Below are positions 3,996 to 51,830 of a stretch of DNA of 62,202 nt, one piece after another (position 1 is the stretch's first letter; each line of letters begins with the position of its first letter). The stretch is taken from positions 1-62,202 of IMG/VR virus record IMGVR_UViG_3300032516_000021; one strand, written 5' to 3'. Below the pieces are notes generated by a model that worked only from the letters and a program-made list of their open reading frames with translations, had not been told where the DNA came from and did no database searches. This DNA comes from a virus. A program made the position numbers and the translations under genes.

Positions 3996-4811
3996 CTACC
4001 TGTGAGTCTTCGTGGTATCAGGAGCGTTGACCACATTTGAATACCGAGACGTCACTGTGCGGATATATGTCCATGCACCTCCCTGCCAGCAGAATATCTG
4101 CGCCGAATCTTTCACTTGGGTTTCTCCACCGGGGAAGAGTAGTTGCATCGAACTGTCGCATGGGACACCGATAAATTCCGATATCCATCTGATCCGGTTT
4201 GGCGTCGCTCGCAGCGAGTCAAGTCCTGCTTGAGTGATAATTGGCAAATCCGTCGTGAGCGGTCGCAAATTTACTGCGGCATGAATTGCTGCCAGTGAGT
4301 CAAAGAGACTATCTGGTAAAGTAGTCATGCCGCCAGTCCCGCCCGCCGACTTGATGACGCTACCAAGAGTACCCGGGGTTCCGGTAGCGGAGGCGGAGTC
4401 CCTCTTGATTGTTGAATCAGCCGCCGCCTTTGCCGCTTCAGGCAAACTCACATACGTATATGCAATGTCGCCGATAAACCAGATAGAATCGCCATGCGCA
4501 AACGCCTGCGGCACAGAATCATTGACCGTAATTGTCACATTCGGACTCGCATAGGCCACGCTGTAGATACCTACTGCAAAAGGCTTGTCCGTGCCTTGAC
4601 GAATAATGATTTTCTGATTGACAAGCGACCTGACTCTGGTCTTGCCAATGGATAAACTATCAACTACGAACTGGGTATAGGCATTGGCGCCGGCGGCATC
4701 GACGGTGTCGATGGTTTGCACTAATGGCCACTGATCGACGGGGGCACCTCTTGCCAGTTGGCAGAACCCGAGGATGATCAGCAGCAACAGAAACAGAATC
4801 AGTTTTTTCAT
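3996..4811 (-). CDS. secreted hypothetical protein in tail operon (271 aa)
   Basis: The start ATG at 4811 overlaps the stop of the upstream gene (ATGA). It begins with a clear Sec signal peptide: MKKLILFLLLLIILGFC, then QLARGAPVD with a likely cleavage after ARG. The mature part is rich in Ser, Asp and Thr and includes a Gly/Thr-rich stretch (GTPGTLGSVIKSAGGTGG). No enzymatic motif is recognised. It is the third of three adjacent genes with signal peptides inserted between gpJ and gpI. A signal peptide on a gene in a tail operon is unusual, because virion parts normally assemble in the cytoplasm. Confidence 0.75.
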   Translation of the reverse strand: MKKLILFLLLLIILGFCQLARGAPVDQWPLVQTIDTVDAAGANAYTQFVVDSLSIGKTRVRSLVNQKIIIRQGTDKPFAVGIYSVAYASPNVTITVNDSVPQAFAHGDSIWFIGDIAYTYVSLPEAAKAAADSTIKRDSASATGTPGTLGSVIKSAGGTGGMTTLPDSLFDSLAAIHAAVNLRPLTTDLPIITQAGLDSLRATPNRIRWISEFIGVPCDSSMQLLFPGGETQVKDSAQIFCWQGGAWTYIRTVTSRYSNVVNAPDTTKTHR

Positions 4812-33892: not shown

Positions 33893-34464
33893 TAGTTACT
33901 CCTTTGTTTGTGTGGATTTCTTGCCTGCTTGACATCCCGCTTTGGCGGTGTGCTGCCGAGCCGTTTGAAATTGTAGAGTGCGACGGCCGTTTCGACCAGC
34001 GCGCGCACTTCTTTGTCTCGTATTGATTCCGCCGCCTTGGCCGCGCATTCGACCTGAGCATCCAGTTCATCGCCTGTGTGGTCTGTGTCAGCGATCAGGC
34101 AGTTCCGGTCGTAGCCTTGGAATATCTGTGAAAGCAAATGGCCGTAGGGTCTGGCCAGCCCTGGCAACTGACGCCACAGTTCAGGGTCTTCCGCCTGTGC
34201 AAAATAGGCTACGTATATGCGCAGGATCGCCAACGTCCGTTCATATATCGCTTCGAAGCGCCTCTCCGAACCGGTACAGACATCGAATTTTTTCATCAGT
34301 TCGGTCGTGGGCAGTCCAATCTTAAACTTGTTGACGATCAACTCCCGCTCCTCTGGAGTCAGCCGCGCGAGTGCCAGCCTGACGGCGCGCTCAATCTCCG
34401 GTGAATGCACAAGCTCACGCCCGAGCGCGCTGACGATGTCGTTATTGTTAGACGAGTTCAACAT
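33892..34464 (-). CDS. sigma-region-4-like helix-turn-helix protein (190 aa)
   Basis: Residues about 28-65 (RLALARLTPEERELIVNKFK, TTELMKKFDVCTGSERR) look like the sigma70 region 4/LuxR-type HTH ('L.p.er.l...f..g.s..ei...'). The rest is helical with acidic patches (IADTDHTGDELDAQVECAAK) and a basic end. It could be a sigma-like late-gene regulator; it lies next to the NusG-like gene and may work with it, which is an inference. A start two codons upstream (GTG) is possible. Confidence 0.6.
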   Translation of the reverse strand: MLNSSNNNDIVSALGRELVHSPEIERAVRLALARLTPEERELIVNKFKIGLPTTELMKKFDVCTGSERRFEAIYERTLAILRIYVAYFAQAEDPELWRQLPGLARPYGHLLSQIFQGYDRNCLIADTDHTGDELDAQVECAAKAAESIRDKEVRALVETAVALYNFKRLGSTPPKRDVKQARNPHKQRSN

Positions 34465-34981
34465 CACTCACACTTACCTTACATGGCGTCACCTGGTCAA
34501 AAAATGGAATCTCTACCACGATATCGTTGCCGCTGGTCCTGCCCGTGACCTGACCCAGTATGCCGCCGAGTTTGCCGGATGTTATCAGTACGATCTTGCC
34601 GACATAAGTCACCGCGAAGTCACCGGCATTGGCGCGGCACCGGCTCAGGGCGTTCATCTTTTCTACCGAAGCGCGGACTTCGCTGAGTTTCTCGTCGGTG
34701 ATGTTAGCGATCCAGTTGCCGAGGATCACGGGCGTCACCGAGACCTGGCCGATGTAGCGGATCAGTTGTATCGGGCTTAGTTCCACGTCCGTCTTCGGCA
34801 GTCTCATCGACACGAACAAGTAGTTCGGATATGCCGGTGTTGCCTGCCACTCTGTCCGACCACCGACATCCACCGGTTCATTGATCGTGGGGCAATAGCA
34901 ATCCACGGTCAGATTGCGGCGCGCAATCTGGTCGAATACCTGCTCGTACTTGCAGTGGTATGTTGTTAACAGCCAAGTCAC
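34448..34981 (-). CDS. NusG-like transcription elongation factor (177 aa)
   Basis: GTG start at 34981 overlapping the upstream stop (GTGA). The N-terminal half is an NGN-type domain: WLLTTYHCKYEQVFDQIARR at the start, VDCYCPTINEPV, and AYPNYLFVSMRL, the counterpart of the 'P.FPgYlFv' signature of NusG/RfaH. The C-terminal part (YVGKIVLITSGKLGGILGQV) is KOW-like. These factors bind RNA polymerase and alter pausing or termination. A phage-encoded copy probably steers late transcription through terminators. Length fits (about 160-180). Confidence 0.72.
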   Translation of the reverse strand: MTWLLTTYHCKYEQVFDQIARRNLTVDCYCPTINEPVDVGGRTEWQATPAYPNYLFVSMRLPKTDVELSPIQLIRYIGQVSVTPVILGNWIANITDEKLSEVRASVEKMNALSRCRANAGDFAVTYVGKIVLITSGKLGGILGQVTGRTSGNDIVVEIPFFDQVTPCKVSVSDVELV

Positions 34982-49825: not shown

Positions 49826-50026
49826 TTATTCGGTTTTGTTGGGGAATAACGTCTTGACGAAGACTCCGAGCGCCCTGGCCAACTTTGCCATTGTTGAACG
49901 GTGCGGTTTCTCCACCGCACCGTTCTCAAGATTATAGAGTGATTGACTGGTGATTCTTGCTCGGCCAGCCAGTTCGCAAATCGACCAGTTCTTTTTCTCA
50001 CGGTACTTTCTGACCGTGTTCTTCAA
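49826..50026 (-). CDS. XRE-family helix-turn-helix regulator (66 aa)
   Basis: ATG 50026 overlaps the stop of the Ro60 gene. Product MKNTVRKYREKKNWSICELA, GRARITSQSLYNLENGAVEK PH, and MAKLARALGVFVKTLF form a complete Cro/C1-type HTH of normal length. It is co-transcribed with Ro60, so it may control either that operon or the RHH operon via the nearby palindrome. Confidence 0.88.
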   Translation of the reverse strand: MKNTVRKYREKKNWSICELAGRARITSQSLYNLENGAVEKPHRSTMAKLARALGVFVKTLFPNKTE

Positions 50027-51477
50027 AGTTCGACTCCCTCAATCGCGTCAATCGGGGAACCGGTGCCCTCTTCCACGGTCTTGATAAAGGACAAAACGTT
50101 CTCAGACCAACCAGCGATCAGATTGACCTTGCCCTGTAAGACCGCCGGAGTAGTTCCTGACCCATTAAGGTCAACTATATGCAACCAAGCATCGGGGGCT
50201 ATCTTCTTGTAAGCAGACCAGAACTTCTGCAAGTCGGCCGGACGATTGTATCCTTGGCGGGAATTCCACAATTGGCAATCGGTAAAGAAGATTACACGAT
50301 CAACCTTTAATCCTTGTTTCATCAGCCAATCAGGAACGAGCCAGCCGTTGGTTGATGAGCCGACTTGAGTGCTGGCAAATCGTTCGGCTATCGCAATCGG
50401 CGAAGAAATCCCGTCATCCGTGACAATGGCAAACTGTTCACCGAAGACAGAAGTGATCGCATTCTTTGACAGGCGCGCCATCAACGCGGACATCAAGTTT
50501 GCCACATCTATGTAATTTGCCTTACCCATGCTGGAAAGCGGAGATTGCATCGATCCTGAATTATCGGCAGCGATCATAGTAAGACCGCCAATCTCTGGCA
50601 AATTGGCGATTGAATAAGTCAGTGCGTCCGAGATAGCCTTCAGCGCTGGTCTTGCCGTTGGAATGCCGGACAACTCCCGATAGGCGGTGTAAAACCGAAA
50701 TGGCAACTGGCGACTGCGTTTCACGGCTTCGGGGTTAGCGATCATGGCAAGAATATCATCCAATTTAGTAGCACCGGATTCAATGATATTCCGCAAGTTC
50801 CGCAGTGCCGCCATGTAGGGGAGTTTCTTCTCGGCAATCAATGCGTCCCACACTTCGGCAGTATTCCCCTTTCCCGATACCTGAGTTTCCCAAGTGATCG
50901 GCACTTCCAACTTATCGTCGAGCAACCGTTTCCAAAGAGCCGCCTGTTCCGCATCAATCGGCTTGGCGTGCGAGATAAGCAGAATGTCGCGGAGTTTGAC
51001 CTTGCCTGCGCGGTTGTATTTTGCCAGTCGGTGTTCATCGAAAGTACCCAGTACGTCGGCCAAAGCAAGACGCACTTGCTTGATTTTCTTGGCAAGCGAG
51101 AAGGTATTCCCTTGCTCAAGAAACGCTACCAACTCCGTCAATTGATCGGGGCGAGTGCAGACCATGTTGATTGTCCGGCGTACTAATGGGCGACCCTTGG
51201 CGTCCAATGCCAACAGTCCGCACATAACAGTCGGTATCGTGCGTAATTGCATCACGTTCCGAGCATAGATTGCTGCCTTAGCGACAAACGCCGGTTCCTT
51301 GCCGATCAACTCTTTGGCGTCTCGGATTAGATCATCGGTATTGTCGCCGTAAAACTTCGGTTCCCGATAAAGACTCGTCATCAATTGTGAAACGAACCTC
51401 TCCTTGAGCGGAAGATCATAGGCGCCCCCGCCTTCTTTGTTGATGGTTTTGATTGTGGGAATGGAATTGATTTTCAT
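50023..51477 (-). CDS. Ro60/TROVE-domain RNA-binding protein (484 aa)
   Basis: N-terminal TROVE (HEAT-like ring) domain about residues 20-275: AYDLPLKERFVSQLMTSLYR, EPAFVAKAAIYARNVMQLRT, LPYMAALRNLRNIIESGATK. A C-terminal von Willebrand A domain has an intact MIDAS, MIAADNSGSMQSP near residues 301-313, and DRVIFFTDCQLWN later. Ro60 orthologues bind Y RNAs and misfolded or damaged RNA and, in Deinococcus and other bacteria, work with PNPase in RNA quality control. ATG 51477 follows AAGGAG. It is preceded by two structured RNAs on the same strand and followed by an XRE regulator. Confidence 0.92.
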   Translation of the reverse strand: MKINSIPTIKTINKEGGGAYDLPLKERFVSQLMTSLYREPKFYGDNTDDLIRDAKELIGKEPAFVAKAAIYARNVMQLRTIPTVMCGLLALDAKGRPLVRRTINMVCTRPDQLTELVAFLEQGNTFSLAKKIKQVRLALADVLGTFDEHRLAKYNRAGKVKLRDILLISHAKPIDAEQAALWKRLLDDKLEVPITWETQVSGKGNTAEVWDALIAEKKLPYMAALRNLRNIIESGATKLDDILAMIANPEAVKRSRQLPFRFYTAYRELSGIPTARPALKAISDALTYSIANLPEIGGLTMIAADNSGSMQSPLSSMGKANYIDVANLMSALMARLSKNAITSVFGEQFAIVTDDGISSPIAIAERFASTQVGSSTNGWLVPDWLMKQGLKVDRVIFFTDCQLWNSRQGYNRPADLQKFWSAYKKIAPDAWLHIVDLNGSGTTPAVLQGKVNLIAGWSENVLSFIKTVEEGTGSPIDAIEGVEL

Positions 51478-51506
51478 AACGGCTCCTTGTTAAGGGCTAA
51501 AGAAAA

Positions 51507-51569
51507 GCTCCGGCAAAAAACGATAACGGACGTTTCCAATAGAAGTAACCGTTATCTACGTCTCGGAGC
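51507..51569 (-). ncRNA. short Y-RNA-like structured RNA
   Basis: The minus strand folds as an outer helix (51564-51569 with 51507-51512, 6 bp), an internal loop and an inner helix (51549-51556 with 51522-51529, 8 bp), capped by a 19-base loop. The internal loop and flanking bases (AGACGTA on one side, TTTTGC on the other) are the same as in the longer RNA upstream. A short Y RNA without a tRNA-like module, similar in layout to Salmonella YrlB, is the best interpretation; a cis-acting leader element is an alternative. Confidence 0.6.
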
Positions 51570-51577
51570 AAATCAGT

Positions 51578-51684
51578 GGACTCGGCAAAAGGCGATTACA
51601 GGCATGACGGCCTTGAACCGTCACTCCCCTTTTCAGGGGAGTTCATCTCGACCAAGAAGTAACTGTAATCTACGTCTCGAATCC
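51578..51684 (-). ncRNA. YrlA-like Y RNA with tRNA-like module
   Basis: The outer helix (51678-51684 with 51578-51584, 7 pairs, one GT) and inner helix (51663-51670 with 51594-51601, 8 bp) repeat the layout of the short RNA. Inside is a tRNA-like module: a T-arm-like hairpin GACGG-TTCAAGG-CCGTC (51606-51622), an anticodon-like stem ACTCCCC/GGGGAGT (51623-51642) with loop TGAAAA, and a D-arm-like TTGGTCGAGAT segment. YrlA RNAs of bacteria are tRNA mimics of this kind. It has no CCA or standard anticodon loop, so it is not a tRNA. It lies 100 bp upstream of the Ro60 gene. Confidence 0.7.
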
Positions 51685-51704
51685 AAATCTTCATACGGGA
51701 CAAG

Positions 51705-51731
51705 GATATATTATTAGTAAAACTTTGTCAA
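51705..51731 (-). promoter_or_regulatory. sigma70-like promoter of the Y RNA/Ro60 unit
   Basis: Minus strand TTGACA (51726-51731) and TATATC (51705-51710) with 15 bases between, in an AT-rich stretch. The start point would be about 51698, just before the longer RNA (from 51684). This would make the RNAs and the Ro60 gene one transcript, or give processed RNAs plus an mRNA. Confidence 0.6.
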
Positions 51732-51761: not shown

Positions 51762-51793
51762 AAAACCCCCGTGCTTCTCATGAAACACGGGGG
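51762..51793 (-). terminator. intrinsic terminator after the lysis cassette
   Basis: CCCCCGTG (51766-51773) and CACGGGGG (51786-51793) pair as an 8-bp stem; on the minus strand it is followed by TTTT (51762-51765). It closes the operon ending at 51831 and separates it from the Ro60 promoter at 51705-51731. Confidence 0.85.
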
Positions 51794-51830
51794 CGGCCAA
51801 GAAAGGAACCAAAGAACCGCGAGAAGCGGG

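Follow-up and report, generated by a model that had tools for sequence, protein, structure and literature searches.

We analyzed a Ro60 locus with adjacent small RNAs in the virus record IMGVR_UViG_3300032516_000021. The window, i.e., the whole stretch of DNA analyzed, comprises 62,202 nt. The record is listed as linear, and terminase, portal, head protease, and tape measure proteins among its products identify the contig as that of a tailed phage. Ro60 is an RNA-binding ring protein that occurs in bacteria and humans too, and a major autoantibody in humans is directed against it. The locus described here almost certainly consists of a Ro60 gene and a pair of Y RNAs. On the minus strand, the order is terminator, promoter, Y RNA 1 (RNA1), Y RNA 2 (RNA2), Shine-Dalgarno sequence, an open reading frame (ORF) of 484 aa, and a helix-turn-helix (HTH) gene:

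51765..51794 (-), intrinsic terminator of the upstream gene, 13-bp stem with 8 GC pairs
51703..51731 (-), predicted sigma70-type promoter, TTGACA-17-TATCCT
51577..51685 (-), Y RNA 1, 109-nt core
51602..51655 (-), tRNA-like insert of Y RNA 1, 54 nt
51507..51569 (-), Y RNA 2, minimal, 63-nt core
50023..51477 (-), Ro60/Rsr-like protein, 484 aa, ATG start, Shine-Dalgarno sequence AAGGAG close upstream
49826..50026 (-), Cro/C1-type HTH protein, 66 aa, TTG start overlapping the Ro60 stop codon
52658-53272, glycosyl hydrolase 108 endolysin, upstream of the Ro60 unit

The original prediction, made from the sequence alone, had delimited the feature as 50023-51731. The locus was found as predicted, but position 51731 is the first base of the TTGACA -35 box and not of an RNA.

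The Ro60-like protein

The 484-residue protein contains a TROVE domain (Pfam PF05731; E 2.4e-32, above the cutoff). The vWA_Ro60 model matched with an E value of 7.8e-6, its score of 26.3 bits being slightly below the cutoff of 27.7. Neither Pfam nor the structure comparison revealed a family fitting better than TROVE. Together with a Ro60-like predicted fold, these matches confirmed the identity that had been proposed for the protein. The metal ion-dependent adhesion site (MIDAS), which had been called intact, is indeed complete: D305, S307, S309, T376, and D400 are present and are invariant in an alignment of 14 phage, plasmid, and window proteins. In PHROGs, the protein matched phrog_850, an RNA-binding protein family. 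Related records were detected in a phage collection (106) and in a plasmid collection (78), every one with less than 60% identity. Its nearest relatives (loci L003 and L004) show 39% and 37% identity; single-protein and narrow-alignment scans of viral contigs yielded these two near relatives only.

An AlphaFold model built from 29 sequences (predicted local distance difference test score, 86; predicted template modeling score, 0.84) suggests that the protein has the Ro60 ring fold. Full-length structural matches of the model were Ro60 structures only, with Z scores of 20 to 28: Ro60 of Thermus phage phiLo (27.8 for 9kop, and 24.6), Xenopus Ro (25.8 to 26.3; 1yvp, with RNAs, 25.8), human Ro60 with misfolded 5S RNA (25.9), and Deinococcus radiodurans Rsr (2nvo; 21.2). 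The first non-Ro60 match (Z 13.7) covered the vWA domain alone. In the alignment with Xenopus Ro, K153 and H170 of the window protein correspond to K170 and H187, which we take to be Y-RNA-binding residues; K153 and H170 are both invariant in the 14 proteins.

Two RNAs with a common docking module

The outer helix of RNA1 is UGGAUUCG/CGAGUCCA (51685-51678/51584-51577). It is followed by an internal loop with AGACGUA (51677-51671) as the 5' strand and GCCUUUUGC as the 3' strand (as DNA GCCTTTTGC; 51593-51585), and by an 8-bp inner helix, GAUUACAG/CUGUAAUC (51670-51663/51601-51594). The sequence UUACUUC (51662-51656) comes next. The internal loop had previously been given as AGACGTA / TTTTGC; its 5' strand was correct, while the 3' strand had to be extended to 9 nt. 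RNA2 consists of the same docking module (outer helix GCUCCG/CGGAGC, internal loop AGACGUA / GUUUUUUGC, inner helix GAUAACGG/CCGUUAUC) with a 12-nt loop and without a tRNA-like part. Both RNAs folded far better than dinucleotide shuffles (z -4.2 for RNA1 and -3.3 for RNA2), none of 200 shuffles being as good.

The string ACGTAGATNACNGTTACTTCT, common to both RNAs, occurs twice in the window versus 0.00 expected occurrences when up to 3 mismatches are allowed. Between RNA1 and RNA2, four helix pairs differ by two-sided changes, two in each helix (outer and inner). Furthermore, the loop variant AGACGUA is present in both window RNAs and in no other among 73 non-redundant copies of the module. 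The two RNAs are therefore most likely duplicates made in the lineage of the window phage, in agreement with the common origin suggested for them earlier.

The insert of RNA1 opens with a GG-containing D-like stretch, UUGGUCGAGAUGA (51655-51643), which is followed by an 8-bp hairpin, ACUCCCCU-GAAA-AGGGGAGU (51642-51623), and by the T-arm GACGG-UUCAAGG-CCGUC (51622-51606). A linker, AUGC, lies between the T-arm and the inner helix. The T-arm mimicry noted in the longer RNA was borne out by five Watson-Crick pairs and by the UUCAA of the T-loop, UUCAAGG, which fits U54 U55 C56 R57 A58.

Occurrence of the module and its relation to known Y RNAs

Beside Ro60 genes in phages and bacteria, we found a module composed of a variable outer helix, a 7-nt/9-nt internal loop with the consensus UGGYGUA / GCYUGUUCC, an 8-bp inner helix, and UUACUUC. 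A finder with the pattern helix, loop, helix, U[A/G]CUUC, insert, helix, loop, helix, which also detected RNA1, yielded 66 copies in the first 60 loci versus 1 after shuffling. With a stricter finder, 189 copies were obtained versus 10 on the opposite strand. Finder copies in genome and virus loci were located upstream of Ro60 in 160 cases and elsewhere in 6. The original prediction had reported no clear Ro-binding motif; a recurrent motif, UGGYGUA / UUACUUC / GCYUGUUCC, is present and lies outside the Rfam YrlA model.

A covariance model, R1, was trained on 71 of the 73 non-redundant modules; the two window copies were left out, and inserts were trimmed to six bases. When R1 was applied to the whole 62-kb window, RNA2 (E 1.7e-10) and RNA1 (E 1e-8) were found, and the next match had an E value of 0.49. 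When R1 was run without filters on a stretch of 500 bases, RNA2 was recovered and RNA1 was missed, although the default run had detected both; we tentatively ascribe the miss to insert length relative to R1 and do not count it against RNA1. In the R1 alignment, 98.5% of the helix cells are paired, a percentage that is partly circular because the finder selected on pairing. Double changes, the compensatory signal expected in related genomes, were detected in all 16 pairs across the 71 copies. Two internal-loop pairs, which were outside the finder selection, are paired in 70 of the 71 sequences; one of them changed from G-C to A-U four times, and the other to C-G or U-A six times.

R1 matched 51 of 52 phage and 43 of 61 bacterial Ro60 loci (94/113), many of which had also supplied training copies. 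All 145 matches in these loci were on the Ro60 strand, and 144 were upstream of the gene. In a control of 484 kb of viral DNA not selected for TROVE, there was 1 weak match. The control loci were those collected with the DNA pattern ACGTAGAN6TTACTTC. This pattern itself, present in at least 119 stretches in viral contigs, was not used as evidence, since its 14 fixed bases are expected about as often by chance (the expectation was similar or higher). Among 289 alphaproteobacterial genomes, 2 were matched by R1, both belonging to the five with TROVE and one being the genome that defined the sample. In each, the match was near the TROVE gene and on the same strand. This recurrence beside Ro60 genes supports the view that the shared part of the window RNAs is a Ro-docking module and the variable part an insert.

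Several copies of the same RNA arrangement are present upstream of Ro60 in both nearest relatives (in L003 with one gene between them), and up to about six copies were found in L127. The arrangement also occurs in phages of Caulobacter, Xanthomonas, Rhizobium, Brevundimonas, and Arthrobacter; in Arthrobacter phage Atuin, an R1-type copy is located downstream of Ro60 (L133 4177-4247). About half of the 189 scored copies have a T-arm, and 51 are short. The layout of RNA1 (GG a few bases past UACUUC, hairpin, T-arm, short linker) was also detected in Bradyrhizobium (L173, L177), in phage Atuin (L133), and in the viral contigs L230, L234, L278, and L248. The commoner long type has the order T-arm, capped hairpin, D-arm, as in the Rfam YrlA consensus, and corresponds to a tRNA opened in its anticodon arm.

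YrlA (RF02553) is modular like RNA1, with a docking stem and a tRNA-like insert carrying a T-arm. Its order is permuted, whereas in RNA1 the D-like stretch and the hairpin precede the T-arm, and RNA2 has none of these elements. The YrlA covariance search, which had been proposed as a check, matched neither RNA: there was no YrlA match in the window at the gathering cutoff or at E 10, and no other relevant Rfam match at these thresholds. On permuted copies in other phages, the YrlA model remained below threshold, with up to 50 bits versus a cutoff of 69. YrlA loci scoring 60 to 92 bits, canonical or close to the threshold, differ in their docking sequence and gave no R1 match. Since Rfam YrlA misses the window RNAs and the YrlA loci lack an R1 match, the R1 docking module is a class separate from that in Rfam.

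Judged from their sequences, RNA1 and RNA2 are Y RNAs in the broad sense, being adjacent to Ro60 and sharing a two-end docking module, with a tRNA-like domain in one of them. Y RNAs are reportedly located near Ro60 (Rsr) orthologs in many bacteria and phages. The sets that Chen et al. are said to have described in 2014 (RNA 20:1715) likewise comprise a Ro60 gene and adjacent small RNAs with a two-end docking stem, one of them tRNA-like; PMC12282133 cites their phage Y RNA finding, mycobacteriophages included. Phage Ro60/Y RNA sets are thus already published, the window set is a further example, and the finding is less new than the original prediction implied. The closest solved fold is that of phiLo Ro60 (9kop, 9l5y), which is also a phage protein with adjacent R1-type RNA. 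It differs in that its identity to the window Ro60 is about 21% and its RNAs lie downstream of the gene. These R1-like RNAs directly follow phiLo Ro60 at L134 4023-4086 and about 4211-4310.

A proposed Ro60 ribonucleoprotein and its alternatives

As a working model, to which we give an even chance, the locus would encode a phage Ro60 ribonucleoprotein that tethers a host enzyme. The analysis establishes the gene, the RNAs, their conserved structure, their linkage to Ro60, and the predicted fold, whereas transcription, binding, tethering, and the target enzyme are what we infer here. Both Y RNAs and the Ro60 mRNA would be transcribed together from the single promoter. Ro60 would form a HEAT ring closed by its vWA domain, and both RNAs would dock on the outer face via the shared module of two helices, 7x9 internal loop, and UUACUUC. 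The tRNA-like part of RNA1 would then project outward, and a host RNA enzyme would recognize it as tRNA. By analogy with Deinococcus RYPER, this enzyme would most likely be polynucleotide phosphorylase (PNPase), and Ro60 would feed structured RNA to it during infection. RNA2, which lacks the tRNA-like part, would probably serve as a gate or stabilizer that occupies Ro60 without tethering. In RYPER of D. radiodurans, the Y RNA stem holds Rsr and the tRNA-like part binds PNPase, which is thereby specialized for structured RNA (PMC8394870). The proposed principle, in which a Y RNA links Ro60 to an exoribonuclease, is the same, but RYPER is cellular and not viral, and tethering in the window phage is proposed by analogy only.

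Several observations weigh against this model. In the window, neither ARAGORN nor the Rfam tRNA model detected a tRNA in RNA1. Because the order of elements in RNA1 differs from that in Rfam YrlA, the effector partner may differ too. Moreover, no Ro60-neighbor gene conserved across the window and its two nearest relatives was found: the neighbor is the HTH gene in the window, and other, unrelated ORFs in L003 and L004. The lack of a conserved neighbor fits a host partner, without showing one.

The Ro60-bound tRNA-like RNA could instead be a decoy or inhibitor. It would then sequester or block a host enzyme that acts on tRNA, such as an anticodon nuclease of anti-phage defense or a tRNA-modifying enzyme, and would not put a nuclease to work by tethering it. 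A decoy role has been proposed for YrlA (PMC7790460), which is modified by DusA and TruB (PMC8394870), and the frequent T-arms among the scored copies are in line with it. However, the hairpin of RNA1, a stem of 8 bp capped by a GAAA tetraloop, lacks a 7-nt anticodon loop, a tRNA part is missing from many copies (RNA2 and the other short ones), and the same RNAs occur in bacteria without phage. We regard a decoy as possible but unlikely. It is improbable that Ro60 is mainly a phage chaperone for RNA repair or quality control, as proposed for jumbo phages with RNA ligases, and that the Y RNAs control entry into its ring cavity. The Ro60 cavity does bind misfolded RNA (structures 2i91 and 9nep), and phage TROVE was grouped with RNA repair in PMC7824862, but searches with a subset of the window ORFs revealed no RNA ligase, RtcB, or polynucleotide kinase.

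The nearly uniform position of R1 matches upstream of Ro60 and on its strand, and the one promoter-like site in the gap, would also suit a cis-regulatory leader, in which the RNAs are protein-binding elements in the 5' region of the Ro60 mRNA that serve autoregulation and are not separate RNAs. This explanation is weakened by phages phiLo and Atuin, in which copies follow the Ro60 gene, and by the tRNA-like modules of many copies, which a leader would not need. The multiple copies in L127 and the intervening gene in L003 also speak against it, and we consider a leader quite improbable.

R1 may also be a portable plug: phages would multiply the module in arrays and swap inserts, giving several effector heads per Ro60 ring, and the unpermuted D-hairpin-T mimic of RNA1 would be aimed at a host partner other than that of YrlA. 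We see this reading as doubtful. The locus is small and self-contained, with one promoter, two RNAs, and one protein. Since one RNA has the tRNA-like part and its sister does not, tethering and gating should be separable by deletion of single RNAs. The docking module is directly testable, because phiLo Ro60 has been crystallized and R1-type RNAs are adjacent to its gene. For specialists, the points of note are a docking class outside Rfam and a pair of sister RNAs, only one of which carries a tRNA mimic. R1 can also serve as a search tool for Y RNAs that Rfam misses and that are sometimes listed as tRNAs in GenBank. R1-type RNAs annotated as tRNA-Gln and tRNA-Thr were observed at L127:1643-1710 (Caulobacter phage CcrColossus) and L139:2331-2398 (Xanthomonas phage 10KY502B), respectively; as these features coincide with R1-type Y RNAs, they are probably misannotations.

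Neighboring genes and further Ro-like loci

The terminator would set the Ro60/Y RNA unit apart from the lysis genes, among which there is, besides the endolysin gene, a small upstream ORF with hydrophobic stretches and no family match. The promoter is the single promoter-like site within the gap ahead of Ro60, and from its position the transcript is expected to start approximately 10 to 12 nt ahead of Y RNA 1. Five promoter-like sites were found versus 3.0 expected, so that the promoter evidence is weak on its own. The 66-aa HTH protein (HTH_19, E 5.8e-11) is probably cotranslated with Ro60 and is possibly a regulator made with it. Elsewhere in the window, the product of the ORF at 34448-34981 (-) resembles NusG in its N-terminal domain (Pfam NusG, E 1.1e-7) and is a possible phage antitermination factor.

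In L004 (3720-3866 (+), IMGVR_UViG_3300010882_000013), the two ends of an RNA form a tRNA acceptor stem (Rfam tRNA, 47.8 bits), and the Ro-docking module is in the anticodon-arm position, with the outer helix loop-closed. The usual Y RNA layout seems to be circularly permuted in this RNA, the fold of which is no better than that of shuffles (z -0.76). A Y-RNA-like element with UUGCUUC for UUACUUC, not reached by R1, is located upstream of an archaeal TROVE gene in Haloplanus rubicundus plasmid pCBA1113-02 (L137:2030-2175).

According to PMC12282133, virions of Listeria phage CKA15 contain an Rsr-like protein, and this phage has highly transcribed RNAs. These RNAs were considered as R1-type Y RNAs and rejected, the related phage P100 having neither a TROVE nor an R1 match. 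The likely P100 counterpart of the Rsr-like protein is gp165 (L310:26571-28091 (-); DQ004855 121570-123090), a DUF2828/DUF7788 protein for which a PDB search gave no match. It is perhaps a second, unrelated Ro-like protein with Y-like RNAs of its own. Within approximately 400 bases upstream of gp165, there are three tandem short hairpins (stems GGAATC/GATTCC, GAGAGC/GCTCTC, and GGAAGC/GCTTCC), which have a CAGCAA(T/A)TACTA stretch in common.
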